A stretch of 64,000 nt of DNA from a virus (IMGVR_UViG_3300018080_000009:40015-104014), one strand, 5' to 3'; positions 20,570-54,934 are shown, numbered from the stretch's first letter. Numbers and translations are program-made. The notes: a model not told the origin generated them from the letters alone.

Positions 20570-20630
20570 TGCCGTATGAACTGTAACCGTAAAATTCTCA
20601 GTCCAAATGACGGAAGGAGATTCAGTAGAC

Positions 20631-21377
20631 ATGCCAAAGACACAGCAGTCAGACAAAGAAAAATTTGGGGTTACGAAGGAGATGAGAGAAACATATGAAC
20701 GCATAATGCGTCGAAGACTCTCTAGTCCTACATTCCATTACAGAGTTGATGAAAACGGTGAAGAGGTGAAAGTCTATCATCGAGACAGATCAACGAATTG
20801 GAATGATTCCAATGAAGGCACTGTCCGAAGAAAACAGCCGTATATGATGGGAGAGGGATTAGGTAACAATCTAGGGATTGATAAGCCTAAGTATACGTAT
20901 TCTGAACGAGTCGAGGAGGTAGATGAAGAAGAAAGAGATTTCCAGAGGAAGGTACGTAGACTCAAGACTCAGTTGACTCGTAGGAAAAATAAGGTAAGAG
21001 TTGAATCCCAGAAGAAGGCTGAAGAGGACGGAAGGTGGATGACAGGACAACGTATTTTTGCTCTCAAGCGTACGTATGATCAGAATTTGAATCATGGTCG
21101 TGATTTTGAGACTCGTTCAAAACGCTTGAAGATACAGATTCCCGATGGAGTAGATGTTGCCCAGACAGAATTTGGTATGCTCCTCATTATTCCAGTAATA
21201 GAAGCAGAAGAGGGTTGGAGCAAAGGTTTAGGCAATCCGAAGAAAGATCCATATGGCAGGAATTTTTGGGTCAGTACCGAAGTCAAAGAGGCAGTCCAGA
21301 ATTTATTTGGATATGTTAATTGGGAACGACCCCTAACTATTCCAGAAGCAGAGCAGTTTGGAGTAAAGGTGTTGTAA
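20631..21377 (+). CDS. Hypothetical charged protein
   Basis: 248 residues. The N-terminal 130 are highly charged and probably helical (RDFQRKVRRLKTQLTRRKNK). The C-terminal part looks globular (GVDVAQTEFGMLLIIPVIEA). No family recognised. The ATG after AGGAG is chosen over an ATG 24 bases upstream that lacks a ribosome site. Its stop overlaps the QueC start. Confidence 0.6.
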   Translation: MPKTQQSDKEKFGVTKEMRETYERIMRRRLSSPTFHYRVDENGEEVKVYHRDRSTNWNDSNEGTVRRKQPYMMGEGLGNNLGIDKPKYTYSERVEEVDEEERDFQRKVRRLKTQLTRRKNKVRVESQKKAEEDGRWMTGQRIFALKRTYDQNLNHGRDFETRSKRLKIQIPDGVDVAQTEFGMLLIIPVIEAEEGWSKGLGNPKKDPYGRNFWVSTEVKEAVQNLFGYVNWERPLTIPEAEQFGVKVL

Positions 21378-22090
21378 TGATAAGGCATGTAGTTTTGATG
21401 TCTGGCGGACCAGATTCTTTGATTACGCTTCAGTTTGTGAAGAATAATTATTTGCCTGGGTTAGTGATTCCGATACATGTGAGCATGAATCATCTGTATG
21501 ATACTGCTGAGAAGAAAGCTCTAGGCAAGATAGAAGCCTTGATGCAGATTGAGATTCAAGAATTCAAGGGTAGATTTGATTTCTCCAGGATAGAAGAGTC
21601 AGATGCCAATATCTATGGCAGGAATGCGTACTTATGTATCGCAGCAGCTTCAGTAGTACCAAAAGGTGACGATGCCTATATTTGGTTGTCGGTTCAAAAA
21701 GACGAGAGATCTATTCCAGATAGAAGTGATGCGTTTTTTGATAAGATGAGTAGGGTTTTGGCAGTTTTGAATAAGCCAAATGAGTTGGTAGTGAGTACTC
21801 CGTGGACGAATAAAGACAAAACAGATATGGTGAGGTATTTCCTGAATGAAGGAGGGAGTACAGGAGTACTTAGGTCTAGTTGGTCTTGTTACAAGGATAC
21901 GTCAGTACAGTGTGGAAATTGTCCAGCTTGTATTCGAAGATACATAGCATTCAGTTTGAATGGGATTGAAGAAGAGTATTTAGAAAATCCGAAGAATTCA
22001 GCTACTGCACTGGATTACATTAATAGAGCTAGAGTTGGTGAGTATTATTCAGAAGAACGTAACCAAAGGATTTTGGCTGCGTTGACATAG
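21377..22090 (+). CDS. queC: QueC-like 7-cyano-7-deazaguanine (preQ0) synthase
   Basis: 237 residues. The PP-loop ATP motif SGGPDS is at residues 9-14, and the C-terminal zinc site WSCY...CGNCPACIRR supplies four cysteines, both diagnostic of QueC. QueC converts 7-carboxy-7-deazaguanine to preQ0 using ATP and ammonia. The other preQ0 genes (QueD, QueE, FolE) and a DpdA-type enzyme lie 12-20 kb downstream. The start overlaps the preceding stop (TAATG). Somewhat divergent from bacterial QueC near the N-terminal third. Confidence 0.85.
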   Translation: MIRHVVLMSGGPDSLITLQFVKNNYLPGLVIPIHVSMNHLYDTAEKKALGKIEALMQIEIQEFKGRFDFSRIEESDANIYGRNAYLCIAAASVVPKGDDAYIWLSVQKDERSIPDRSDAFFDKMSRVLAVLNKPNELVVSTPWTNKDKTDMVRYFLNEGGSTGVLRSSWSCYKDTSVQCGNCPACIRRYIAFSLNGIEEEYLENPKNSATALDYINRARVGEYYSEERNQRILAALT

Positions 22091-23317: not shown

Positions 23318-23791
23318 ATGGATAAGACAGACAAAGAGATAGTTTGGCTTCCTATTGATTTAGCTAAGAAAGTTAAAGATGCTGAATCAACGAAGGAATT
23401 AGATGCTTTGATTATCGGCTATCTTGATGAGTCCAGAGGAGAAGTTAAAGCAAATCTTGAGAGTTTGGATGCGGATTTGTTGCAGTATCGTGCAATGATG
23501 ACCAAGGCTAAAGTTGCTTTTAGAGAAGCCAAGGATGAGCAATGTACTGCATCCTATGAGCTTTGGGAGAATTTCGATAAGGAATTGCCTAAAGTAAAGG
23601 AGAAGATTATGAGGATTGTTCGTATCTTGAATCCTTTGTCCAAGCAACTTAAGGAAATTGACGATCTCATGAGGAAGATAAACACATATCAGTTAGAGAA
23701 AGTAGCTGAATTGCTTTCCAGGATTGAGAATGCGAGTCCAGCTCTTTTGAAGGCCATAGGTCTTTTTGTCAGTGAAGAAAGGGGAGAGTAG
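23318..23791 (+). CDS. Hypothetical coiled-coil protein
   Basis: 157 residues, mostly heptad-like helix (LNPLSKQLKEIDDLMRKINT). Strong AGGAGGAGAT ribosome site. One base separates it from the next, large gene. Confidence 0.6.
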   Translation: MDKTDKEIVWLPIDLAKKVKDAESTKELDALIIGYLDESRGEVKANLESLDADLLQYRAMMTKAKVAFREAKDEQCTASYELWENFDKELPKVKEKIMRIVRILNPLSKQLKEIDDLMRKINTYQLEKVAELLSRIENASPALLKAIGLFVSEERGE

Positions 23792-23792
23792 T

Positions 23793-25826
23793 ATGGAGTT
23801 CAAGGAATTTAATGCTTTATTGAAAAGACATTTTCATGAAATGTCGAGTGGAGAGCAGTATCTGTTTGTAACGGATGTGACTCCAGACGATATGTGGGAT
23901 GTTTATATGGAGAGCTTTCCCCCAGGAACGAATGAAGTTTTCAGGGAGAGGAGAGAATTTGATTGTGCCTGTTGCAAGCAATTCATTCGAGCATTTGGCA
24001 ATGTTGTTGCTATCAAGGGATTGAAAGCGGTGTCGATTTGGGATTTTGATGTCTTGGAGCCTAAGTACAAGGCTGTAACAGAATCAATGTCTGAGTTCGT
24101 CAAGTCCAAACCGGTTCGAGATGTATTTCTTCCGATAGCCAGAGCCTATGGTACTGAAAAGAATCTTGAAACAAAGGACAGTAAAAATATTCTGACATGG
24201 CATCATTTTCAGATTCAGATACCGGAATCGGTAAAGAGGTTTAAGGAGATCGATGTTGGTACTGTTCGTGGACGAATGAGAGATGTACGGAATGTGCTCA
24301 AACGTTCTTTCAAAGAACTGTCCACAGATTCCATTGATACTGTTCTGGATTTGATAGCTCAGAAGTCCTTGTACAAGGGTGAAGAGTGGCAGAAGCCTTT
24401 GCAGAAGTTTCGTTTGATGCATGAGGAATTTCATCAGATGGAATTCGAGTCAGATCAGGAGAATTATTGCTGGGTAGCTTCAATAGAAGCTGGTGAAGCC
24501 ATAAGTAAGATCAAGAATCATTCAATAGGTGTTTTGCTTACGGATCTTTCTGGAGATATGGATCTGAATGATGCTGTCAGGAGGTATGAAAGTATTGTAG
24601 CTCCGACCAACTACAAACGACCAAAGGCTATCTTCACTAAGAAGATGGTTGAGAAGGCAAAAGCCACGGTAGAGAAGATGGGATTTGGAGATTCTTTAGG
24701 AAGGAGATTCGCTACCCTAGAAGATATTACAGTAAACAATATTCTTTTTGCTAATCGAGATGCGATGAAGCAGATGTCGGGGGATGTTTTCGAAGATCTA
24801 ACAGATTCAGTTCCAGATAAACCAAAGAACTTCGAGAAGGTTGAGGAAGTAGCTATTGAGACGTTTATTAAAGATGTACTTCCAACGGCCAAAGAAATAG
24901 AAGTACTGTTGGAGAACAGCCATAAGTCCAATATGATGTCGTTATTGGCACCAAAAGTTCCTGATAGTAAGACTATGTTCAAATGGAATAATGGTTTTTC
25001 ATGGGCTTATGCTGGGAATATTACTGACAGCATGAAGGAAAGGGTGAAGTCTTTTGGTGGTAAAGTAGATGGAGTACTTAGGTTCTCTATTCAGTGGAAT
25101 GACAATGATGATAATCCAGATGATCTGGATGCTCACTGTGTAGAGCCGAATAGGAACAGAATTTATTTCAGCAATAAGAGAAGTCCAGTTTCTGGTGGTG
25201 AGCTTGATGTGGACATCATTAGTCCCGATGGAGTAGCGGTGGAGAACATAACATGGCAAGAAACACGTCGTATGACCAAAGGAAAGTATGAGTTTATGGT
25301 TCATTGCTACACCAGTAGAGGAGCGAAATCAGGATTCACTGCCGAGATTGAATTTAATAATAGAATATTCTCTTTTGCTTATCCTAGGCCATTAAGACAA
25401 GGGGAGTACATCAATGTTGCAGATGTTTCTTTCGATGGCAAGGAATTCAAGATGGTTAAAGAGCATCTGACCTCGTCTGAAACTTCTGTCGAGATCTGGA
25501 ATTTGTATTCGAATAAGTTTCATCCGGTATCGGCGTGTATGTATTCCCCCAATTATTGGGATGATCAAAAGGGTATCGGACATCGACACTACTTCTTCTT
25601 GCTCAAAGGATGCAGAAACGATGAGAATCCAAATGGGTTTTTCAATGAGTTTTTGAATGAGGAGTTGATGCCCCATAAGAGAGTGTTTGAAGCTCTAGGT
25701 TCTAAGATGAGAGTAGAGGATTCTGAGAATCAGCTCTCTGGTCTTGGATTTAGTTCAACGAAACGTGCTTCCCTTGTTTGTAGAGTGAAGGGAAGTTTTG
25801 AAAGAGTCATCAGACTCACTTTTTAG
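23793..25826 (+). CDS. Large conserved phage protein of unknown function
   Basis: 677 residues. An early DCACCKQF pair of Cys and, near residues 430-560, a beta-sandwich segment (RFSIQWNDNDDNPDDLDAHC, then GGELDVDIISPDGV) resembling DUF2135/YfaP-type domains. This protein and the next two genes form a trio I recall from other large phages, always unannotated. The ATG after GGGGAG is chosen. Confidence 0.65.
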   Translation: MEFKEFNALLKRHFHEMSSGEQYLFVTDVTPDDMWDVYMESFPPGTNEVFRERREFDCACCKQFIRAFGNVVAIKGLKAVSIWDFDVLEPKYKAVTESMSEFVKSKPVRDVFLPIARAYGTEKNLETKDSKNILTWHHFQIQIPESVKRFKEIDVGTVRGRMRDVRNVLKRSFKELSTDSIDTVLDLIAQKSLYKGEEWQKPLQKFRLMHEEFHQMEFESDQENYCWVASIEAGEAISKIKNHSIGVLLTDLSGDMDLNDAVRRYESIVAPTNYKRPKAIFTKKMVEKAKATVEKMGFGDSLGRRFATLEDITVNNILFANRDAMKQMSGDVFEDLTDSVPDKPKNFEKVEEVAIETFIKDVLPTAKEIEVLLENSHKSNMMSLLAPKVPDSKTMFKWNNGFSWAYAGNITDSMKERVKSFGGKVDGVLRFSIQWNDNDDNPDDLDAHCVEPNRNRIYFSNKRSPVSGGELDVDIISPDGVAVENITWQETRRMTKGKYEFMVHCYTSRGAKSGFTAEIEFNNRIFSFAYPRPLRQGEYINVADVSFDGKEFKMVKEHLTSSETSVEIWNLYSNKFHPVSACMYSPNYWDDQKGIGHRHYFFLLKGCRNDENPNGFFNEFLNEELMPHKRVFEALGSKMRVEDSENQLSGLGFSSTKRASLVCRVKGSFERVIRLTF

Positions 25827-33689: not shown

Positions 33690-33971
33690 ATGGACCAACA
33701 ACAAGAGAAATTTATTTCTTTGAAGGTTGCCGGTAAGTCTGAAGCCGCTAAAGTAGCGGGATCAATCGTCAAGAATATGCAGGAAGGCAAGAGGGTAGAG
33801 CTTTTGGCTATGGGAGCTGGTGCAGTGAATCAAGCTGTAAAGGCGATTTGTATAGCCAGGGGTATGGTAGGATCTCACGGGTGGAATTTGTATACAATTC
33901 CGGGATTCAAAGACGAGGTAGTGAAGGGGATTTCCAAGACAGCTATCCGATTCAGTATTGTAAAGGAATAG
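33690..33971 (+). CDS. SpoVS-like protein (stage V sporulation protein S family)
   Basis: 93 residues. FISLKVAGKSEAAKVAGSIV, ELLAMGAGAVNQAVKAICIA and RGMVGSHGW match the Alba-like SpoVS family almost end to end. SpoVS in Bacillus affects sporulation; it has an Alba/nucleic-acid-binding fold and homologues occur in Deinococcus and Myxococcus. Rare in phages as far as I know. AGGAGG ribosome site. It is directly upstream of the queuosine-type genes. Confidence 0.8.
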   Translation: MDQQQEKFISLKVAGKSEAAKVAGSIVKNMQEGKRVELLAMGAGAVNQAVKAICIARGMVGSHGWNLYTIPGFKDEVVKGISKTAIRFSIVKE

Positions 33972-33973
33972 TC

Positions 33974-34426
33974 ATGGGGAAGTGGAGAGTAACAAAGCGT
34001 ATCGAATTTGATGCTGCACACAGGCTTTGTAATTATGTAGGAAAATGTTCAAATGTTCATGGACACCGGTATGCAGCAGAATTCACTTTTTCTAGTGATA
34101 GGTTAACTGATCAGGGTTTTGTCGTAGATTTTGGTGACATCAAGAGATTGATTGGTAATTGGATCGATGAGTATTGGGATCATGCTTTGATACTTAAAGA
34201 AGGTGATGAGGCTGTGAATATATCTTTGTCAGATGCCAAAGTTTATTACATGGATAAGTCTAATCCTACGGCTGAAAATATGGCTGAATATCTGTGGAAT
34301 AAAGCTTTCGAGCTTTTTGATAAGGAGAGCATAATCGACTATACGCGTGAGCATGAGTATAGAATTCGGTTAGAGAAGGTTCGGGTATATGAGACTCCTA
34401 CGAGTTGGGCGGAGTATATGAGATGA
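33974..34426 (+). CDS. queD: QueD: 6-carboxy-5,6,7,8-tetrahydropterin synthase
   Basis: 150 residues. Zinc histidines H16, H29, H31 and the catalytic Cys25 are visible in FDAAHRLCNYVGKCSNVHGH. DHALIL and PTAENMAEYLW follow, all hallmarks of the PTPS/QueD family. It makes CPH4 from dihydroneopterin triphosphate, the second step to preQ0. The frame is open upstream, but the ATG after AAAGGAATAGTC gives the family's normal length. It overlaps QueE by 4 bases. Confidence 0.92.
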   Translation: MGKWRVTKRIEFDAAHRLCNYVGKCSNVHGHRYAAEFTFSSDRLTDQGFVVDFGDIKRLIGNWIDEYWDHALILKEGDEAVNISLSDAKVYYMDKSNPTAENMAEYLWNKAFELFDKESIIDYTREHEYRIRLEKVRVYETPTSWAEYMR

Positions 34427-35124
34427 AGACATATAACGTAAGTGAGATATTTCTGTCCATTCAGGGTGAAGGTAGATCCGTAGGGTCTCCCGCAGTATTT
34501 GTTCGATTAGCTGGTTGCAACAGAAAATGTGAATTTTGCGATACTGATCATATGGTTCAGGAAGAAATGTCTTCAATGACTATCCGAAGGCGTGTCAGAG
34601 AATTAATTGAAGATTGTGAAGACATGTTGATAGTTCTGACTGGTGGAGAACCTCTGATGCAGATGGATCAGGAATTGCTGCATTATTTGTCAGGCATGGG
34701 CAAGGTATGTCTTGAGACAAATGGCGAGCTATGTGAAAATTTTTCAAAAAGGTTTGATGCCAAGTTTTATGACATTGTATTAAGCCCTAAGTCTCAGAAG
34801 ATAGATTCAGAATTTTTGCAAATGGTGGATACATTTAAGTTACTTGTCCCGTATCCGAAGGAGTTGGATGAGGAGAAGGTCAGAGCCATGATTACGATGG
34901 CTCAAAGGGGTGGTCCCAAAGAATTAATACTCCAGCCTCAAACGCATCCAGGATTGTTTCAGCTGGACGATACGAGGTCTATTCGTCTAGTAGGTGGAGA
35001 TGTCTTGGTTAAGTGGAGAATGAACTGTGAAAAGGCACTGAAGCTGTCTCTCAGGTGGAGACGACAGTACAATGAAAATTGGAGAGTAATACCTCAAACA
35101 CATCGATTCATGGAAATGAGATAA
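34423..35124 (+). CDS. queE: QueE: 7-carboxy-7-deazaguanine synthase (radical SAM)
   Basis: 233 residues. SIQGEGRSVGSPAVFVRLAG precedes the CX3CX2C cluster (C32, C36, C39 in CNRKCEFC), and LTGGEPL is the SAM-binding GGE motif. QueE contracts the ring of CPH4 to CDG. ATGA overlap with QueD indicates coupling. Length and motif order are normal. Confidence 0.92.
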   Translation: MKTYNVSEIFLSIQGEGRSVGSPAVFVRLAGCNRKCEFCDTDHMVQEEMSSMTIRRRVRELIEDCEDMLIVLTGGEPLMQMDQELLHYLSGMGKVCLETNGELCENFSKRFDAKFYDIVLSPKSQKIDSEFLQMVDTFKLLVPYPKELDEEKVRAMITMAQRGGPKELILQPQTHPGLFQLDDTRSIRLVGGDVLVKWRMNCEKALKLSLRWRRQYNENWRVIPQTHRFMEMR

Positions 35125-35133
35125 GGAGAAGTC

Positions 35134-35520
35134 ATGACAGATGAGAAGATCATGGTAGATACGTATAGAGAAGGAGATGAGGAACCGACTCAAGCTCAAG
35201 AACCTAAGCTAACAGACGTTTCAGAAGAGGAGCAACAGGAAGAAGAGATTCCTTTGTCGGCAGTATTACTTCTCAAGTACAAGGATCGGGTAGAAATAGC
35301 CCCAAAAGGATTGGGAATCGAAGTAGATCATGAGGCATCTGCACGGGAGATCCGTGACATAGTTCATTCAGTGTACTGTGATTTCGATACCATGATTAAG
35401 GGCAAGGAAGCAGCTAAGGCTATGGCAACGACTCTTGTCCAGGCTTCGAGGGTTATTCAGCCTCCGAAAATGGCTATGACTAACTTGATGAAAGGTATGC
35501 CAGGAGGGAGACCAAGATGA
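35134..35520 (+). CDS. Hypothetical protein inside the deazaguanine island
   Basis: 128 residues: an acidic, Gln/Glu-rich N-terminus (1-40), a small folded part and a Met-rich end (KMAMTNLMKGMPGGRPR). No enzyme motifs. Lies between queE and folE and overlaps folE by 4 bases. Confidence 0.55.
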   Translation: MTDEKIMVDTYREGDEEPTQAQEPKLTDVSEEEQQEEEIPLSAVLLLKYKDRVEIAPKGLGIEVDHEASAREIRDIVHSVYCDFDTMIKGKEAAKAMATTLVQASRVIQPPKMAMTNLMKGMPGGRPR

Positions 35521-36077
35521 ATGAAGCCAAGCCACTGGTTGAGCTTTCGAAAGCCGTTGATATGATTCTGGAATCTGTTGGTGAGAATACGGTTAGAGAG
35601 GGTTTAAGAGAAACTCCAGCTCGAGTAGCAAACATGTATCTGGATTTGACCAGGGGATTGAGAGATCCAGCTCCAGAAATGACTACCTTTGATAAAGGGG
35701 ATAACGATCAGATGGTGACCATTATGGGCATAGATTATTGGTCTATGTGTGAGCATCATTTGATTCCTTTTTATGGACAGGTTCATATTGGGTATTTGCC
35801 TAACGATAGAATAGCTGGATTGTCTAAGTTTGCCAGAATAACAGATTGGTATGCAAAAAGACCACAGATTCAGGAACAGATGACGGCCCAGATTGCTGGA
35901 CATCTGATGAGACAATTAGAACCCAAGGGTGTGATAGTGGTAGTAGAGGGTACGCATTTGTGTATGGCAATGCGTGGGGTTAGGAAGCCCAATCATGTTA
36001 CGATGACTTCAGCTATCCGAGGAAACATACCTAAGTCTGAGTTTCTTGATCTGCTCAAGATTCATAAAGGTAAATAA
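35517..36077 (+). CDS. folE: FolE: GTP cyclohydrolase I
   Basis: 186 residues. The zinc site is C78-E-H80-H81 (SMCEHHLIPF) with a later Cys in GTHLCMAMRGV. GYLPNDRIAGLSKFARI and the C-terminal TSAIRG are also conserved. It turns GTP into dihydroneopterin triphosphate, the entry step of preQ0 synthesis. ATGA overlap upstream and a one-base overlap with the HAD gene downstream. Confidence 0.93.
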   Translation: MNEAKPLVELSKAVDMILESVGENTVREGLRETPARVANMYLDLTRGLRDPAPEMTTFDKGDNDQMVTIMGIDYWSMCEHHLIPFYGQVHIGYLPNDRIAGLSKFARITDWYAKRPQIQEQMTAQIAGHLMRQLEPKGVIVVVEGTHLCMAMRGVRKPNHVTMTSAIRGNIPKSEFLDLLKIHKGK

Positions 36078-36478
36078 TGCGTGATTGGGGAGGCAAGAAG
36101 CCGATAGCTGTCGTAGATATCGATGGAGTATTGGCTACAGGCACAGTGGAAGATGTTTATTCAGAAGATGCTGGATGGGCATTTGGTAAATGTAGTCCAA
36201 TTTTTGAAGGGATCGAAATCTTGAATAGGCTTCGTGAGCAAGATGTGAAAATAGTGCTTCATACGGCCAGATGGGAAGATGACAGAGCAGTTACCGAGCA
36301 TTGGTTGAGTTCACATGAAGTAGCTTATGATGAGTTGATAATGGGCAAGCCTAGTGCAGACATCTATATTGATGACAAGAACTTTCCAGTTCCTTTCATT
36401 CCGGAGGATTGGGATTTAGATCGGGCCATTAATTACATTTTAGATGAAATCGAAAGCAATCGTGGGAAGAGAACATAA
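36077..36478 (+). CDS. HAD-superfamily hydrolase/phosphatase
   Basis: 133 residues. Motif I VVDIDGVLA (nucleophile Asp and DxD), motif II LHTARW and motif III/IV KPSADIYIDDKNF are complete. Small cap-less HAD enzymes often remove phosphate from sugars or nucleotides. In this island it could dephosphorylate a sugar or deazapurine intermediate (inference). Confidence 0.8.
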   Translation: MRDWGGKKPIAVVDIDGVLATGTVEDVYSEDAGWAFGKCSPIFEGIEILNRLREQDVKIVLHTARWEDDRAVTEHWLSSHEVAYDELIMGKPSADIYIDDKNFPVPFIPEDWDLDRAINYILDEIESNRGKRT

Positions 36479-37623
36479 TGGAGAGAACAGTTCCAGACGT
36501 TTCTAAGCAGGAAGGTAAGTTCGAGAAGAGGTGGTCTAAGAGTTTTGAGAAGATGCAAGTACTCAAGGCAGAATGGCTTATTACCAGAAAATGCGATTTG
36601 AAATGTTCTTACTGTAGGATTATAGATTCGTCTTCTTTGCATGGTAGGCCGGAATTGACTACTCAGCAATTGATCGATGTAGTCAAGATGTTTGCAGATC
36701 AATGGCCTGGGGCACCGCTGGTAGTTTATGGTGGAGAACCTTGTACTAGGGATGATTTGCCTGAGTTGATTAGTGCTGGTAGGGAGTATGGTGTAAAGCT
36801 TCCTGTCATTTCGAATTCTCTGAGGATTATGAGGGATGAAGATTTTCGTGAGAGGCTAGTACGTTCTGGCCTAGAAAATTGGTCTGTTTCGTTTGATGGA
36901 GCTTGGGAAGATCAAACTGTGGATAAGGCTTCGTTTTTGAAATCTGATAAGGGATTCAAGGCTCTTCAGATGTTCAGAGATAAGTATGGTATTAGGGATT
37001 TGGTAGCATGTGTTACAGTGACAAATAGGAATATAGATAATCTTCCTCAGATTCTTCAGTATCTGACGAGGGAAGGTATTCATGCCATATTTACTCCCTT
37101 ACATATTGGGGGCCCAGAGTATGAATATGGTCAAGGAAATCCAGATGACTTGCCTTCTCAGAAACAATTAGATGAAGTGTCTCCACAACTTTATTCGATG
37201 GTGAAGTCGGGTAGGTATCTTTGTTCTAATGATGCAGCGTGGTTTAATGTGTAGCCAGAGCATTTTCGGAAACAAGATTGGATGTGTAATGATAAAGGTC
37301 TGGTGACCATAGATGCCGATGGTTCGTTGAAGTATTGTGTAGACATTGCATTTAGGGAAGAGGATACGATGTTTGTCTGGGAGCTTTCTACGGAAGAAGG
37401 TCAGAGAAAGTTTCTGAAGACCATTCAAAAAGGTCCTGTGTGTAAAGGGTGTTTGTGGAATCCAGCTTACGAATGTATTAAGAGAGCAAGGGATCCTGAA
37501 ATAGGTATCGATGAAGGGAGAAAGCGTTCACGACATTACGTTGATGAAAAGAGGATAGATATTTTATATGGGGGTGCTGGTAAGTATTTCAAAGGTAATC
37601 CTGAGTTGAAAGTATGTAGATGA
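36478..37623 (+). CDS. Radical SAM/SPASM protein interrupted by an in-frame TAG
   Basis: The frame reads through one amber codon at 37252-37254 to give 381 residues. N-terminal radical SAM core: CDLKCSYC (C39, C43, C46) and VVYGGEPC. After the amber, a SPASM-like Cys-rich end: WMCNDKGLVTIDADGSLKYC, then VCKGCLWNPAYEC. The downstream part has no ribosome site of its own, so this is one gene, either broken, miscalled (AAG to TAG is one change) or recoded. SPASM enzymes modify peptides or small substrates; here, possibly the deazaguanine base (inference). Confidence 0.7.
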
Positions 37624-37841
37624 GTGAGAAGGACGATAAAAAAGTTTTTAATCTAGTTAAAGGTGGTGGAAAACCAAATAAGCTCAAAAAGCTTCTGGAG
37701 GATTTCAAGGAAAATTTACCTATCTTGATTGAATATTCAGAACCGAATGCAAAATTATGTATGGCTAGGTATAAAGCTTTCTTGGCCGAAGGATTTGATT
37801 CTGTCCAAGCACTGTCCTTAACCATGAAAATGTTAGAGTAG
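37620..37841 (+). CDS. Hypothetical small protein
   Basis: 73 residues: Lys/Gly-rich N-terminus then a helical domain (YSEPNAKLCMARYKAFLAEG). ATGA-type overlap with the radical SAM gene. Unknown role, but part of the same transcription unit as the glycosyltransferases. Confidence 0.55.
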   Translation: MSEKDDKKVFNLVKGGGKPNKLKKLLEDFKENLPILIEYSEPNAKLCMARYKAFLAEGFDSVQALSLTMKMLE

Positions 37842-37854
37842 TTTAGGAGAGATT

Positions 37855-38694
37855 ATGCCCAAGAAAAAGACATTGTCGTCTGTCGTTGTTGAGGAGCCAG
37901 GCATTACAGTTGCGATTCCAACGATAGGTAGGGTAGAAACGCTTCCTGCTGTAATAACGTCGGTGTGTTTCCAGACGTATTCTGTCGGTGAAATAATCAT
38001 TCTTGATGAAGCTAAGACTCCAATTATGGAATCGTATGCAGTGAATCAAGCGTTAGACGTATTGTCTATCAGGAATGGTGTAGAGATAAAGGTCATTCGA
38101 AGTCGTAGAAGGGGAGGTATTGGTGCAGCTAGATTGAAGTTGGCTGAAGAAGCTTTGAATGATCGTATTATGATGATTGATGATGATGTGGTTTTGAATC
38201 CGGCATGTATAGAACATTTGTATAATGCACTTCAGGATTATGAGGTTCCGTGGGCAGTACCGACCTGTTTCTTAGTACCGGCTAATTTAGAGTTGGATGG
38301 ATACATAGATACTTTGGTTGATGCTGAAGATCCGAAGGTGGTATCATGGACAGAAAAGTATCCGTGGTTTGTTCCGTATTTTCGATATTTGGGATCCATA
38401 GAGAGGAAGATACCTGTAGCTGGTACGCAAAGCATTATGCTTTCTAAAAGAGAATTGCTTTCTAAAGCTGGGGATATGTGGAAGCTAGGCAATCTTCCGA
38501 GAGAAGATACCTATATGACTAAGAAGATGGGTCCAGGCATGTTTATTTCGAGAGCAGAATGTCTACATTATGAACACCCTTCTCAATTGGATAGAGGAAA
38601 TTGGGGTAAGTCTACGTTTTATCGTCTACATGAAGCTATAATGACAGATCCAGATGGGTTTCTGTCCATGATGAAGAAGAATGGTGTAGATTAG
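37855..38694 (+). CDS. GT-A fold (GT2-like) glycosyltransferase
   Basis: 279 residues. TVAIPTIGRVETLPAVITSV is the typical GT2 N-terminus. GGIGAARLKLAEEAL and MMIDDDVVLNP supply the DxD-type metal site that binds the nucleotide sugar. The C-terminal part has a possible catalytic acidic site (LPREDTYMTKKMG). No membrane segment, so it is soluble. It lies between the HAD/radical SAM genes and dpdA. Confidence 0.8.
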   Translation: MPKKKTLSSVVVEEPGITVAIPTIGRVETLPAVITSVCFQTYSVGEIIILDEAKTPIMESYAVNQALDVLSIRNGVEIKVIRSRRRGGIGAARLKLAEEALNDRIMMIDDDVVLNPACIEHLYNALQDYEVPWAVPTCFLVPANLELDGYIDTLVDAEDPKVVSWTEKYPWFVPYFRYLGSIERKIPVAGTQSIMLSKRELLSKAGDMWKLGNLPREDTYMTKKMGPGMFISRAECLHYEHPSQLDRGNWGKSTFYRLHEAIMTDPDGFLSMMKKNGVD

Positions 38695-38703
38695 GAGAGA
38701 TTC

Positions 38704-39819
38704 ATGAAGGTAGCCCTGATAGCAGATGAGTATCGTACTTCTTATAGTAGGTTTGAAGACTATTATTTGAATTATTCTGCTATGGGCTATGTTGAAGGAC
38801 TAAGCAGAGCTCTAGTTGAAGCAGGCCATGAGGTATTGGTCATAGCCCATAAGCCAGAATCTGAGTTTAATAATGGTAGATTTACTGCCTTGGGATTAGG
38901 GATGCAGTCTGATATTGAATTCTCTCAGTCAGTGCATCATATTTTGTGTGAGAAGCCTGTCGATGTTGTTGAGGCTCCGTCTTTCAAGTATCCCCTGTTG
39001 ATTGAGCAGCTTGTTGGAGGGACTCCCACGGTAGTACGTGTTGACATTGGTACAATGGATTTGGTTGAGAAGGGTAGATGGGCTGATGATGTAAAATATG
39101 CTTCAAGGCATAAGTCCTGGTCTAGGCATCTACTTGAATTGAAAACAGTGTCTATGGCTTCTGGAATCATAGCTCCGAAGTCGGTCCATAGAAGCAGGGC
39201 ATCTTTGATTACAGATGCTCCGATTTCTGGGATTTCAAATGGGGTAGATATTCTGATAGACAGGGAAGATCTGTTTGAGAATAGAGAAGGTTTTATTATT
39301 CCAGTGTTAGATGTTTCTAGGGAGATGTCTGCTTTAGTCAAAGGGATCTGTTCAGTACTCCAGGGTGAGAAAGTTACTTTGGTAGGGCATCCGAATATCG
39401 GCAGTTTGTTTGATGGGGCTTTTTTGAATACAGTTACTTTAGAGATGGATATAGGACTTCATTGTTGGACTAAGAGATTGCTTTCTTGTGAAGCTGTAAT
39501 TCTCCCAGGCATGTTGTCGGAGTATACTCCTATGGTTATGGATGCAATGGTTCATGCATGTCCGACTATTTGTTTCAACTGTGGACCAGATACAGCTTCT
39601 TGGCCTTTATATTTCATGGGTGAGCAAAATATTCTCTCGGTCAGGAATCTTCCGAAGATTTTGGATTTTATGCGTAAGGAAAAGAGGGAAGATCAGGTGA
39701 ATAAGTTCTATGAATTTGCTGAGAAGCATTTGTGGAGTAAATTAATCCCTGAGTACGAGGAAATATATCTCGATGCTATGGCTTATTCGGCTAATAGAGG
39801 ACGTACACGAGGATGGTAG
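38704..39819 (+). CDS. GT-B fold (GT4-like) glycosyltransferase
   Basis: 371 residues. Start MKVALIADEYRTSYSRF and GYVEGLSRALVEAGHEVLVI form a GT4 N-terminal Rossmann domain. In the C-terminal half AVILPGMLSEYTPMVMDAMV has the usual EYTP...E/DAM donor-binding arrangement of retaining GT4 enzymes. The gene overlaps dpdA by 7 bases, a strong sign of joint expression. Known GT4 member QTMAN/GTDC1 mannosylates queuosine in tRNA; relation to this protein is untested. Confidence 0.75.
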   Translation: MKVALIADEYRTSYSRFEDYYLNYSAMGYVEGLSRALVEAGHEVLVIAHKPESEFNNGRFTALGLGMQSDIEFSQSVHHILCEKPVDVVEAPSFKYPLLIEQLVGGTPTVVRVDIGTMDLVEKGRWADDVKYASRHKSWSRHLLELKTVSMASGIIAPKSVHRSRASLITDAPISGISNGVDILIDREDLFENREGFIIPVLDVSREMSALVKGICSVLQGEKVTLVGHPNIGSLFDGAFLNTVTLEMDIGLHCWTKRLLSCEAVILPGMLSEYTPMVMDAMVHACPTICFNCGPDTASWPLYFMGEQNILSVRNLPKILDFMRKEKREDQVNKFYEFAEKHLWSKLIPEYEEIYLDAMAYSANRGRTRGW

Positions 39820-41459
39820 ACAAAGGCACAGGGCAGGAAAACATTGTCGTCGATGACGATGAAGAGTTTCCATATTGTGGTAGGGAAGGTGATATAGAAG
39901 AGCCACCTGAAGATGAGGAGGATCTTCCTGAGACATTAGAATTGTCTCCAGTTCCAGAGAATACGTCTGAAGATTCTTTAGACTCTCGTATAGAAGTAGT
40001 GAAGAATCCGGCTTTAGAATCATTCTTGAAACGATGTGATAGAGATTTACCTCCAGATAGAAGGTGCTATGGAATAAAGCTTTGTTTTGCTGGTTGTGAA
40101 TCAAAAGCTGTAAGGGATGGATTGTATCGAATAGGAGTACGTCAGATTCTGGTTTCGTATTTTTATTTTAGGAAGTATCTCAAGAGGACGTCCCTTCAGG
40201 AGCTTGCCGAAGACCTAGGTAGATTTGATTTTGTGTTTCTTGATTCTGGTGGATTTACTCTGATGCAGGCTTTGCAGAAGAATAAGGCTACAGAGAATTT
40301 GAAGGATTATGCAGAGGAATACTACCGTGAATTGCCTAAGATACATCATTTGTTCTCGATATGTGCTGAAGTTGACGTAGAAGAATTAGGCATAGCCTAT
40401 ATGGAGGAGAAGAAGCGTCAGATGCTAGATGCAGGAGTAAATATAGCTCCAGTCATCCAGCAAAAGCCAATATCTCAGTATGAGAGCTATGGTTGGTTTG
40501 ATTTGTTTCCCTACATAGCTTTGGGTTCTATTACAGCCAGTGATCCTAAATATGTTTCGTACATTAATCAGCTGTATGAAATCGGTAAGGAAAAGGGAAT
40601 TGTCTATCATGGTTTTGGTGTGACCAGAGCTAACACGATTCTTCGTTCTCGATACTATTCAGTCGATTCTACGTCGTGGACTTCTGGAGCTCGATTTGGC
40701 GTGACTATGATTTTTCAGAATGGTCGTATACGTCACTATGACAAAAAGAAAAAAGATGTTCGTAAGAGGTATAAGAGAAGGTTTGAAGAGGCTGGATTGA
40801 TCTGGAGTGATTTGGAGCAGGATAAGAACTTCGAGATCAATATGATGAATGCTTTGGCTTGGAAACAATGGGCAGACTATATCAAGTATTCCGCACATAA
40901 ATGTTACTGGTTGACACCGAAGGAGTGGGATGAAGCTCTGACCATGAAATCCAAGGCTTTTAATGCCGAAGGTCTGATGGATAGAAGTGCATCTATTCAG
41001 AGGACTATGAGTAGGAGATTAGCTCAGGTAGATGATGCGAGGAAGGATGATAGGACTCAAGAACCCCTGCTATGTAACAATTGCAATATGTCTGGTAGGT
41101 GTCCCAGATATAAGCCAGAACAACCGTGTGGATATGACATCAATATTCGATTAGAGACTCAAGCTGATCTGAAGAGAGCTATTCAGATAGTGTTGGAGTC
41201 TCAATTAGGTAGAGTGAATACAGGGATTTTATTTGAAAAGCTGGAGGGAGGTACTTTTGATATGAATCTTTCTCTAGAGGTCCAGAGATTTATGAACATG
41301 GTTGCCCAGGCAAAGAGTATTTTTGAAATACGTGACGATGAGATAGAAATAAAGGCTAAGGGTGGTGGAGCTGTATCCAAGATGATGGAAGCTTTGTTTA
41401 AAGATTCAGATTCCAAAAAAGAAAAGGGTCCGGTAATTAATATTACGAAAGAAGATTAG
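39813..41459 (+). CDS. dpdA: DpdA-type TGT-like DNA transglycosylase with C-terminal extension
   Basis: 548 residues. An acidic N-terminus (1-60) precedes a TIM-barrel of the tRNA-guanine transglycosylase superfamily: FLDSGGFTL (about 142-150) and VDSTSWTSGARFG (about 284-296), the two catalytic aspartate regions. YIALGSI and HGFGVTR also fit phage DpdA. DpdA exchanges guanine in DNA for a 7-deazaguanine base such as preQ0. The TGT zinc site is absent; instead a separate domain begins at about 418 with C421, C424, C430, C439 and a helical end. All preQ0 genes are in the window. Confidence 0.85.
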   Translation: MVDKGTGQENIVVDDDEEFPYCGREGDIEEPPEDEEDLPETLELSPVPENTSEDSLDSRIEVVKNPALESFLKRCDRDLPPDRRCYGIKLCFAGCESKAVRDGLYRIGVRQILVSYFYFRKYLKRTSLQELAEDLGRFDFVFLDSGGFTLMQALQKNKATENLKDYAEEYYRELPKIHHLFSICAEVDVEELGIAYMEEKKRQMLDAGVNIAPVIQQKPISQYESYGWFDLFPYIALGSITASDPKYVSYINQLYEIGKEKGIVYHGFGVTRANTILRSRYYSVDSTSWTSGARFGVTMIFQNGRIRHYDKKKKDVRKRYKRRFEEAGLIWSDLEQDKNFEINMMNALAWKQWADYIKYSAHKCYWLTPKEWDEALTMKSKAFNAEGLMDRSASIQRTMSRRLAQVDDARKDDRTQEPLLCNNCNMSGRCPRYKPEQPCGYDINIRLETQADLKRAIQIVLESQLGRVNTGILFEKLEGGTFDMNLSLEVQRFMNMVAQAKSIFEIRDDEIEIKAKGGGAVSKMMEALFKDSDSKKEKGPVINITKED

Positions 41460-49037: not shown

Positions 49038-49775
49038 ATGAAATACAGTCCAAGGGATAGGTGTACAGAAGAAGAATTGGCAATAACCAGTATTGATAAT
49101 GATACTGTCTTTACTGATGCAGTAGTATCGAAAGTGCTTCCTAATGATGTGAAATTTGTAGATGGCTTTCATTTGTTTGTTGAAGATGCTGAAAAGTATG
49201 TTCAGCCAGATGATACGCTTCGATTATATGGCCAAGGTATTGGTCATGTTGTAAGAGGAGTGGCGGTAGTCAAAGAAAATGGGAAGATAGAAGTATTGAG
49301 ATATAAAACTCCTCTAGAGTCTGCCACAGAAGACTGTAAACGGTTTGAGGAAAACGATAGAAAGCGTGAAGAACAAGCTGAGAAGATACGTAAACAAGTT
49401 GATGTTGATCAGCCTCCCAAGTTTAAGTGTAAGGATCTAGATGCTTGGAAGACCTGGGTGAAGAATAATCTTGAGCCCTATGGTCGTGCAGTAATTGTGT
49501 ATGCTGAAAGATGGGCTGTACTGATGGAAAAGAAGATGGCTGAGGGTGCGACTCTAAAAGACATTGCCAAAGATACAAGTCACGAAGCAGACACAGATGG
49601 GATCACTGGATTCATGTATGGTGCAGCCATAGCTACACTTGTTGGAACGTGGGAACATGGAGAAGAGCTGAGAAAATGGCATAATCTAGATATGCAGATG
49701 GGAGACGAGGGTGAGAAAGCCAATGAAGAAGGTGGAGTATTGAATCCTGCTTGTTTGAGTATCAGCAGTTACTAA
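49038..49775 (+). CDS. Hypothetical protein
   Basis: 245 residues. The C-terminal half (YGRAVIVYAERWAVLMEKKM, then GFMYGAAIATLVGTWEHGEE) resembles a conserved phage unknown. AAGGAG precedes the start, 19 bases after the tRNA-like element. Confidence 0.6.
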   Translation: MKYSPRDRCTEEELAITSIDNDTVFTDAVVSKVLPNDVKFVDGFHLFVEDAEKYVQPDDTLRLYGQGIGHVVRGVAVVKENGKIEVLRYKTPLESATEDCKRFEENDRKREEQAEKIRKQVDVDQPPKFKCKDLDAWKTWVKNNLEPYGRAVIVYAERWAVLMEKKMAEGATLKDIAKDTSHEADTDGITGFMYGAAIATLVGTWEHGEELRKWHNLDMQMGDEGEKANEEGGVLNPACLSISSY

Positions 49776-52207: not shown

Positions 52208-52810
52208 ATGGATAGGGATGATGCAGTGACTCTGAATAGAGAACATTTGAAGAGAATGGGTGAAGTAGACTCCAAATTGACTGAGGAGGAGCAGAAGCAT
52301 CTTGATGATCTCGATGATGATCAGTCTGAGTTTTTAGCCTATACAATGTATAATTTGGGCCAGATAGGATTGGTGGGAGGAAATATTCTAGATATTGGTG
52401 CTGGGAATGCTTTTAGAAGAGATCTCCTGCTAGAGGTATTCAAAGGGACCTATACTGGTATTGAGATGATACCCGAGGTAGCCTTTGCAGGACGACGTAA
52501 GGGGATTGTTCATGGGTTCATAGAGGACTTGTCAGAGAGCCGTCTGGGGCCGTTTGAGTGGGGGTTTGCATATCACGTTATGGAGCACGTCAGGAACCCG
52601 AGGAGAGCCTTGGAAGCAGTCCATGCTGTTTTGGTGCCCGGTGGAACATATGGCCAAGCCACACCTGCTGAGATACCAGATGATGAGCCTGCCCATATAA
52701 CGGAATTGCACTCGTATGAATGGGCTGCTTTGTTAGAGGAATGTGGATTTGAGGTTTTGTTTTCAGGTATTCATCTGAAATCGAGCATTGTTGTAGGGAG
52801 GGCTAAGTAG
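52208..52810 (+). CDS. Class I SAM-dependent methyltransferase
   Basis: 200 residues. Motif I GNILDIGAGNAFRRDLL (about 60-76) binds SAM; AYHVMEHVRNPRRAL and VLVPGGTYG are the usual post-motif elements of small-molecule Methyltransf_11/23 enzymes. There is no DNA-methylase catalytic motif (DPPY or similar), so the substrate is probably a metabolite, sugar or protein. Helical N-terminal extension. Lies upstream of two radical SAM genes. Confidence 0.75.
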   Translation: MDRDDAVTLNREHLKRMGEVDSKLTEEEQKHLDDLDDDQSEFLAYTMYNLGQIGLVGGNILDIGAGNAFRRDLLLEVFKGTYTGIEMIPEVAFAGRRKGIVHGFIEDLSESRLGPFEWGFAYHVMEHVRNPRRALEAVHAVLVPGGTYGQATPAEIPDDEPAHITELHSYEWAALLEECGFEVLFSGIHLKSSIVVGRAK

Positions 52811-53342: not shown

Positions 53343-54308
53343 ATGAAGATCGAGAATGTTTTGCATCTTCCTAGTGGAAGGATCTTTTTGTTGCGTACAG
53401 ATGATGGCTATCTAATTGAATCAACTGAGATGAGAGATGTTTCAGTAGGTGGAAAAGAACATCAAGAAGTACGTCAATCCAATGATCCTCATGTTATTTG
53501 GAAGCACCTTGTTCCATTTAGTGAAAAGTGGCTCCTGACTGTAAGTACACAGAAGGGATGTACCCATAAGTGTAGGTTTTGTGATGTTGCTGCATTGCCT
53601 TTTAAAGGAAACATTTCTCAGTATGAGATTGAGAAGCAGGTGACAGAGATTCTGAAAAGTACTCCGTATGTGAAGAAATGCCAAAAGGTCAAAATAGGGT
53701 TTGCCAGAATGGGAGAGCCTGCATGGAATCTTAATGCAGTATTGTCAACGATACGTAGGTTGCCAGACATAGCTGAAAGTCTTTCCAGAGAATTTAGATG
53801 GCTTCCGTGTTTCAATACGATTTTGCCGAAAAAAGCACCATGTTTAAATCAGGTGATAGAACTTAAAGAAAAAGACTACAAAGGATTTCTGCATTTGCAG
53901 ATAAGCTGTAATTCTACTGATGAAGAGATGAGGTTAGAGCTGTTCGGGGGAGCATCTGTTCTTAGTTTAGAAGATGTTATTAATGAGGTATCGAAACACA
54001 AGATTACCAATAGAACAGTAACACTCAATTTTATTGTCATGAAGGGGGTAGAAGTCAGTATTGACAAGTTGAAGAAAATGGGTCTGAACAAAGATAAGTT
54101 TATGGTCAAGCTGATTCCCCTTAACGATACTCTAAATGCACGTGAGCATGATTTGGAAACAGTTGCTAACTACAGTAATTATGAGGATCTGCTCGAGCTC
54201 AAAAATGAATTCGAAAAAGCAGATGTCCCGGTAGTTGTAGATGTAATTGCTAAGTGTGAGGAGGCTGGTTTATGTTGCGGACAGCTAGCCCAAATATTTC
54301 AGTCATAA
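53343..54308 (+). CDS. RlmN/Cfr-like radical SAM protein with altered active site
   Basis: 321 residues. STQKGCTHKCRFC holds the CX3CX2C cluster (C73, C77, C80), ARMGEPAWN matches the RlmN GMGEP motif, and the C-terminal CGQLAQ keeps the methyl-carrying Cys of RlmN/Cfr. The position of the second catalytic Cys (Cys118 in E. coli RlmN, seven residues before the cluster) is Thr66. RlmN-type enzymes methylate adenine C2/C8 in RNA through both cysteines, so this one may do different chemistry. Overlaps the next radical SAM gene by 37 bases. Confidence 0.75.
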   Translation: MKIENVLHLPSGRIFLLRTDDGYLIESTEMRDVSVGGKEHQEVRQSNDPHVIWKHLVPFSEKWLLTVSTQKGCTHKCRFCDVAALPFKGNISQYEIEKQVTEILKSTPYVKKCQKVKIGFARMGEPAWNLNAVLSTIRRLPDIAESLSREFRWLPCFNTILPKKAPCLNQVIELKEKDYKGFLHLQISCNSTDEEMRLELFGGASVLSLEDVINEVSKHKITNRTVTLNFIVMKGVEVSIDKLKKMGLNKDKFMVKLIPLNDTLNAREHDLETVANYSNYEDLLELKNEFEKADVPVVVDVIAKCEEAGLCCGQLAQIFQS

Positions 54309-54934
54309 CTAATTTTGGATGTGGAGCAGGGTGTTGGTATTGTATTTGGAAAGGACATCCGTTAGAGAACGTTCGATTAGAGACTGACTGGGATAAGTTA
54401 GATTCTTTCTTATATGAATACAAGGACAGGGAGAAGGTTTCTGTTTCTGGTGGTGGTGATTGTCTGTATAAGTACGATCAGTATGTTGGATGGTGGATAA
54501 AGTTCTTTGAACTGACAGAGCATCATGGGTTATTGGTAGATGTCCATACGAGGGAGCAATTTACGCATCAGTCTTTTTGGAGAAAGCATATCAATAGATG
54601 TGTTTTCAGTTCAGATAGGTTGTCAGAAGATATTAAGTTTCTGAGATATGTCTCAAAATTGTGTAAGGTCAGAATAACTCATTTGGTAACAGCCGATACT
54701 ACGATGGAAATGATTGAGGAATATCTTGAGTTTCAGGGAGAAATTAGCTGTCAGTTTACAATAAAAGAACTGATAGGATTCAGTGATAATGGGATGTACG
54801 GACGTATTCGAGAGAAGTATCCAGAGATATTCAGTTTAGATGCTGGGGATTACAATGTGTATTACATGCCAGATAATACAATAAAAGAGCAGTTTTATTT
54901 GAGCATTAATTTGTCTCTATTGAAGGTGGAGTGA
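54272..54934 (+). CDS. Second radical SAM protein
   Basis: 220 residues. FGCGAGCWYCIWKGH gives CX3CX2C (C17, C21, C24), and VSGGGDCLY is the SAM-binding GGE-like motif. Short C-terminus without auxiliary cluster. Good GAGGAGG site inside the preceding gene, so both are translated together. Substrate unknown. Confidence 0.7.
   Translation: MLRTASPNISVITNFGCGAGCWYCIWKGHPLENVRLETDWDKLDSFLYEYKDREKVSVSGGGDCLYKYDQYVGWWIKFFELTEHHGLLVDVHTREQFTHQSFWRKHINRCVFSSDRLSEDIKFLRYVSKLCKVRITHLVTADTTMEMIEEYLEFQGEISCQFTIKELIGFSDNGMYGRIREKYPEIFSLDAGDYNVYYMPDNTIKEQFYLSINLSLLKVE

Follow-up and report, generated by a model that had tools for sequence, protein, structure and literature searches.

Modification of phage DNA of the DpdA type, described for Enterobacteria phage 9g, Rosebush and CAjan (Hutinet 2019, PMC6884629), involves exchange of a base at the DNA level, and two further known systems attach sugars to modified bases. 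In the T-even phages, members of TAGT, a sister group of the GT2 family of glycosyltransferases, glycosylate phage DNA (PMC13216743), adding one sugar and then more to hydroxymethylcytosine, while in tRNA QTMAN and QTGAL place sugars on the 7-deazaguanine base of queuosine after its insertion by a transglycosylase, the acceptor being a cyclopentene diol (PMC12518689). The locus examined here is an operon from a contractile-tailed phage (G000), contained in a stretch of 64,000 nucleotides (hereafter the window) which corresponds to positions 40015-104014 of the 104,014-base IMG/VR virus record IMGVR_UViG_3300018080_000009. A DNA-level base exchange is expected here as in the DpdA phages; however, a cassette of radical SAM and glycosyltransferase genes is a feature of the window operon, and the text of Hutinet 2019 (PMC6884629) contains none of the words 'glycosyl', 'radical SAM' or 'SPASM'. 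The gene content suggests, with a probability of about 0.55, an operon for 7-deazaguanine modification of DNA to which a glycosylation cassette has been added, the product of which would be decorated with sugars by a conserved first glycosyltransferase and a variable outer set.

The operon occupies 33690-41459 on the + strand, with intergenic gaps of -7 to +13 bases. A sequence-only reading of the window had reported genes for a HAD protein, a radical SAM/SPASM enzyme and two glycosyltransferases, tightly packed on the + strand between folE and dpdA (36077-39819), the last of them overlapping dpdA by 7 bases. Both the packing and the overlap (38704-39819 against 39813-41459) are confirmed, and the same interval also holds a fifth small gene, orf73. 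The genes are listed below, where the four genomes are G000 and its three relatives G001, G002 and G003.

21377-22090, + strand: queC, 7-cyano-7-deazaguanine synthase; PF06508 E 1e-19 (over cut-off), TIGR00364 E 1e-14 (below cut-off); SGGPDS and CGNCPAC motifs
33690-33971, + strand: SpoVS-like gene at the operon head; PF04232 E 8e-25; homologues at the same position in G001 and G002
33974-34426, + strand: queD; PF01242 E 8e-35, phrog_2389
34423-35124, + strand: queE; phrog_2076 E 2e-30, QueE NCBIfam models E 1e-21 (below their cut-offs)
35134-35520, + strand: small conserved open reading frame of 128 residues, between queE and folE in all four genomes (phmmer and blastp to the relatives)
35517-36077, + strand: folE, GTP cyclohydrolase I; PF01227 E 1e-63
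36077-36478, + strand: small HAD phosphatase, PNKP-phosphatase/EcbF-BcbF-like; phrog_1238 E 3e-17, phrog_415 E 1e-12; motifs kept in all four genomes
36478-37623, + strand: radical SAM enzyme with auxiliary-cluster cysteines in its C-terminal part, interrupted by a TAG; PF04055 E 2e-10; full-length homologues in three relatives
37620-37841, + strand: orf73, small open reading frame of 73 residues between the radical SAM and GT2 genes; no homologue seen in the relatives
37855-38694, + strand: core GT2 glycosyltransferase; PF00535 E 4e-16; GT-A fold, DDD and ED motifs; in all four genomes
38704-39819, + strand: divergent GT4-like glycosyltransferase; PF13579 E 9e-7; phmmer to G003 6e-23 and to G002 6e-9
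39813-41459, + strand: dpdA, 548 residues, DNA guanine transglycosylase-like with a Cys-rich C-terminal extension; phrog_887 E 3e-43

Single-protein searches with the GT2 and radical SAM proteins, followed by alignment searches, identified three uncultured relatives, namely IMGVR_UViG_3300017991_000077 (G001, 97 kb), 3300028822_000274 (G002, 104 kb) and 3300037493_003022 (G003, 113 kb), and a distant sister, 3300046698_000540 (G004). G000 to G003 form one lineage in which one structural-region protein is 69-75% identical, the terminase about 60% and many other proteins 35-55%; the DpdA proteins of the three relatives are 49-57% identical to that of the window. The order spoVS-queD-queE-orf-folE-HAD-(queC)-radical SAM-[glycosyltransferases]-dpdA is common to the relatives, the spoVS homologue being kept in G001 and G002, and the succession from queD to HAD, then radical SAM, glycosyltransferases and dpdA, recurs in all four genomes, with overlapping reading frames at many joints. 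Recurrence of the cassette at this position in the three other genomes shows that its arrangement is not a matter of chance. Between the radical SAM gene and dpdA the genomes carry the following genes.

G000: orf73-GT2-GT4
G001: GT2b-GT2-GT25
G002: GT2-polysaccharide deacetylase-GT2b-GT4b-GT4
G003: orf144-GT2-orf292-GT2b-GT4

The core GT2 and the radical SAM enzyme, and not GT4, are thus the constant parts, GT4 being absent from G001, while the remaining sugar genes are exchanged at one spot (GT2b in three genomes, GT25 in one, the deacetylase in one). Glycosyltransferase content, including a second GT4, varies solely in this interval, as expected of enzymes for outer glycan decoration.

Co-occurrence with dpdA, which the sequence-only reading had named as a check, is seen: homologues of the radical SAM and GT2 genes in viral contigs were found in dpdA phages alone, always between the preQ0 genes and dpdA, and no related phage was seen to carry the glycosyltransferases without dpdA. 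All PF00535 matches in G000 to G003 fall within the operon, in the interval between the radical SAM gene and dpdA. PF00535 had no match in nine dpdA phage records without the cassette, which include the terminase kin Streptomyces phages BRock, GiJojo and LuckySocke and Bacteroides phage BS162P1, and the same nine records yielded no radical SAM homologue, apart from a match in W08 that is both short and weak (E 4e-5) and falls on the queE gene of that phage. A further 60 IMG/VR dpdA loci (24-36% identical to the window DpdA, many of them truncated at contig edges) gave no match to GT2, GT2b, GT4, GT25 or the deacetylase; the HAD matched once and the radical SAM protein weakly. Searches with GT4 and DpdA as single proteins, tblastn of GT2, GT4 and GT2b against 50,697 phage records and a genome-contig scan with the DpdA alignment gave no match. 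The cassette therefore characterises a single phage lineage, which has retained it while diverging deeply, and is not a general companion of dpdA.

The same placement bears on an alternative in which the deazaguanine of the DNA bears no sugar (being dPreQ0 or a radical SAM product) and the glycosyltransferases share only the transcript, acting on host surface glycans or phage structural proteins. The GT2, GT4 and GT25 families mostly act on polysaccharides or lipids, the closest NCBIfam matches of the window GT2 are mycofactocin and exopolysaccharide glycosyltransferases, PF01522 deacetylases usually act on polysaccharides, and preQ0 offers no evident hydroxyl acceptor, a point taken up below. 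Yet the glycosyltransferases sit between the preQ0 genes and dpdA in all four genomes while their content varies, and GT2-family genes are confined to that place. The cassette also seems unlike an O-antigen-conversion set, since no epimerase-type sugar genes were found and no membrane-like stretches were found in its glycosyltransferases; a GtrB-like PHROG match is weak (E 0.002). On balance, this alternative is considered unlikely.

The assignment of the core GT2 is based on the PF00535 match, which is over the cut-off, and the DxD (DDD) and ED motifs; its predicted model (pLDDT 73) matches GT-A/GT2 enzymes, and the protein is 51-63% identical to its counterparts in the relatives. The GT4-like protein scores 29.8 bits with PF13579, against a cut-off of 29.7. 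Membership of TAGT (PF20691) was considered and rejected, the best score being 20.3 bits (G003) against a cut-off of 27.5, with E 0.005 in G001. The resemblance to the T-even system would lie in phage-encoded glycosyltransferases that attach a first sugar and then others to a modified base of the DNA, whereas the acceptor differs and the window GT2 stays below the TAGT cut-off. A parallel with QTMAN had been drawn by the sequence-only reading and is upheld neither as homology, no Pfam, NCBIfam or PDB match of that family being found, nor as chemistry, since QueA, needed for the queuosine ring, was looked for and not found; the likeness is confined to the proposed attachment of sugars to a 7-deazaguanine base after transglycosylase insertion.

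With queC at 21377-22090, all genes for the synthesis and insertion of preQ0 (folE, queD, queE, queC and dpdA) are present. The displaced queC, which the sequence-only reading had missed, lies 14 kb upstream and outside the 36077-39819 interval, whereas in G001-G003 it follows the HAD gene and adjoins the radical SAM gene. The DSG and HG motifs of DpdA are invariant and SVDST is present, so that both pathway genes and DpdA motifs mark the locus as a probable DpdA-type 7-deazaguanine DNA modification system. The window DpdA is of the long form and is 25-26% identical to the Streptomyces phage DpdAs. The HAD gene, which had been grouped with the other three cassette genes as unnecessary for preQ0, directly follows folE in all four genomes; as it stays with folE and queC and encodes a common phage phosphatase domain, it is assigned to the base or nucleotide part of the pathway and not to glycosylation.

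Two observations on DpdA proteins outside the window may be recorded here. The dpdA of G003 (L078:6955-9894) encodes 979 residues, of which about 430 form an intein-like insertion directly behind 'YSIDSS', the equivalent of the SVDST active-site motif. In Streptomyces phages GiJojo, LuckySocke and BRock the DpdA-like proteins (L005:8004-9509, L008:601-2097 and L009:6001-7503) carry SVAST or SVSST where others have SVDST, the phages have no queC, and these proteins are maybe inactive or use another substrate.

The radical SAM gene stands where the sequence-only reading had placed it and has the expected domain, though it is not a single open frame: an in-frame TAG at 37252-37254 splits the radical SAM domain (residues 1-258, with CxxxCxxC) from the region that carries the auxiliary-cluster cysteines (C270, C287, C322 and C325), all four of which are kept in every relative. 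The three relatives have full-length, uninterrupted homologues, 46-70% identical to the window protein. Identity to the G001 homologue is 77.9% after the TAG and 65.8% before it, with equal third-position divergence (0.59); the part behind the TAG is as constrained as the part before, so that the stop either arose recently, is read through or results from an assembly error. Recoding of amber as an amino acid was rejected as unlikely, because TAG ends 43 of the 112 open reading frames of the window, more than any other stop, and a search for a suppressor tRNA found none. Translation through the TAG was confined to the searches and to a single row of the alignment from which the fold was modelled. 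If it is neither recent nor read through nor an assembly error, the TAG may keep the pathway from running to its end here, and the confidence in a complete pathway in this single genome is for this reason lower than that given above for the operon. A related view is that the pathway is truncated in this phage, the radical SAM gene being broken, GT2b missing and queC moved, so that its DNA carries plain deazaguanine although the relatives glycosylate theirs. The loss of the four cysteines and the lack of GT2b would fit; the undiminished constraint behind the TAG, which makes the lesion very recent or not real, and the intact GT2, GT4, DpdA and preQ0 frames argue against it, and this view is regarded as rather unlikely.

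The SPASM label is not supported, there being no SPASM Pfam match and four, not seven, C-terminal cysteines common to the four genomes (twitch-like), with CxxxCxxC kept. In a Foldseek search with the predicted model (pLDDT 63), BlsE, viperin, MoaA and SPASM/twitch enzymes, which have the radical SAM fold and in several cases C-terminal auxiliary-cluster cysteines, matched at class level with about 13-18% identity and none clearly nearer than the rest. The predicted fold thus resembles nucleoside and nucleotide enzymes (BlsE, viperin, MoaA), a sugar enzyme (DesII) and peptide enzymes alike, and the search does not choose among them. A resemblance to SPASM peptide maturases, the weak likeness of GT2 to MftF and the proximity of the small orf73 might suggest that these enzymes modify a peptide or small molecule, as in a mycofactocin- or RiPP-like system, and entered the operon by happenstance. 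However, orf73 was rejected as a peptide precursor since it is not conserved, no precursor-like gene is common to the four genomes, and both the cysteine count and the equal similarity to nucleoside and nucleotide enzymes point elsewhere, making such an origin very improbable.

The gene content, order, conservation and confinement to the operon, which are directly observed, lead us to infer that a deazaguanine in DNA is the sugar acceptor in this lineage, a proposition judged slightly better than even; the attachment atom, the radical SAM reaction, the role of the HAD and the order of steps are inferred likewise. In the proposed scheme, FolE, QueD, QueE and QueC would make preQ0 or its precursor, which DpdA would exchange for guanine in the phage DNA after replication. 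The radical SAM enzyme and the core GT2 would then make an acceptor of the base, whether inserted or still free, and add the first sugar from a host nucleotide-sugar, and lineage-specific enzymes (GT4 here; GT2b, GT25 and the deacetylase in the relatives) would lengthen or alter the glycan, probably in evasion of host nucleases that read modified DNA. In its most specific form, namely a first example of glycosylated 7-deazaguanine in DNA, with the radical SAM enzyme making or altering the acceptor on the DpdA-inserted base, GT2 adding the first sugar and exchangeable glycosyltransferases with a deacetylase building lineage-specific glycans, the proposal is tentative and falls a little short of even odds.

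Several points weigh against glycosylation of the base. The acceptor chemistry is a difficulty, because preQ0 offers no obvious hydroxyl acceptor, no QueF over the cut-off was found in any of G000 to G003, QueA is absent and QueC is not a Gat-QueC fusion; it is therefore plausible that the radical SAM enzyme creates the acceptor or modifies the sugar. Two ways round this were discarded: a Gat-QueC split over 20607-22090, as the open reading frame upstream of queC has no matching domain, and QueF-based preQ1 as acceptor, as the QueF match in G000, G001 and G003 is the folE gene only, below the cut-off. In addition, the radical SAM frame is interrupted in the window genome, the E-x7-E donor-site motif of GT4 is degenerate in all three members, the TAGT likeness is weak, the Foldseek matches of the GT2 and radical SAM models are generic, and the two GT2 genes of G004 lie about 20 kb from its dpdA. 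A count of a GGCC-type pattern was uninformative. Since the four genomes are one clade, the linkage represents one origin retained and not four independent events; the independent evidence is that sugar genes have been replaced again and again within this one interval.

In G004 (L079:3492-10068), folE, queC and dpdA occur with a QueF-family gene (G004:88738-88962) and, nearby, ATP-grasp ligase-like (484 residues), GNAT-like (344 residues) and YkgJ-like genes, so that preQ1 there perhaps receives an amide or acyl decoration instead of sugars.

No mention of glycosylated deazaguanine was found in the literature searched, where absence is not proof, many subscription papers and preprints lying outside its coverage; this suggests that sugars on a 7-deazaguanine DNA base, and a deazaguanine system with an embedded, exchangeable glycosyltransferase set, are new. 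Cui and colleagues reportedly described in 2023 eight 7-deazaguanine derivatives in phage DNA, all with small groups at C7. If correct, the glycosylation proposal would join two so-far separate branches of hypermodification, glycosylation, known on pyrimidines, and deazaguanine, on purines, and would provide new bulky marks against restriction and CRISPR enzymes while presenting defences that use type IV restriction or DNA glycosylases with new targets. The three relatives with intact frames offer a ready gene set for testing.

Other features of this phage were also noted. About 365 residues (198-563) of the large terminase of G000 (L002:1575-4445, 956 residues) have no match in the G001 and G002 terminases and are a probable intein. 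Two overlapping radical SAM genes lie at 53343-54934 of the window; the first resembles RlmN/Cfr (TIGR00048 E 1e-18, below cut-off), and a methyltransferase gene is found close by at 52208-52810. The gene at 49038-49775 has the domain of Tad4 (PF25186 E 1e-32), which inhibits Thoeris defence of type I. The 686-residue protein encoded at 23766-25826 (phrog_1735 E 7e-260) occurs in 508 phage records from many host genera and is 51% identical to its counterpart in a Clostridioides phage.

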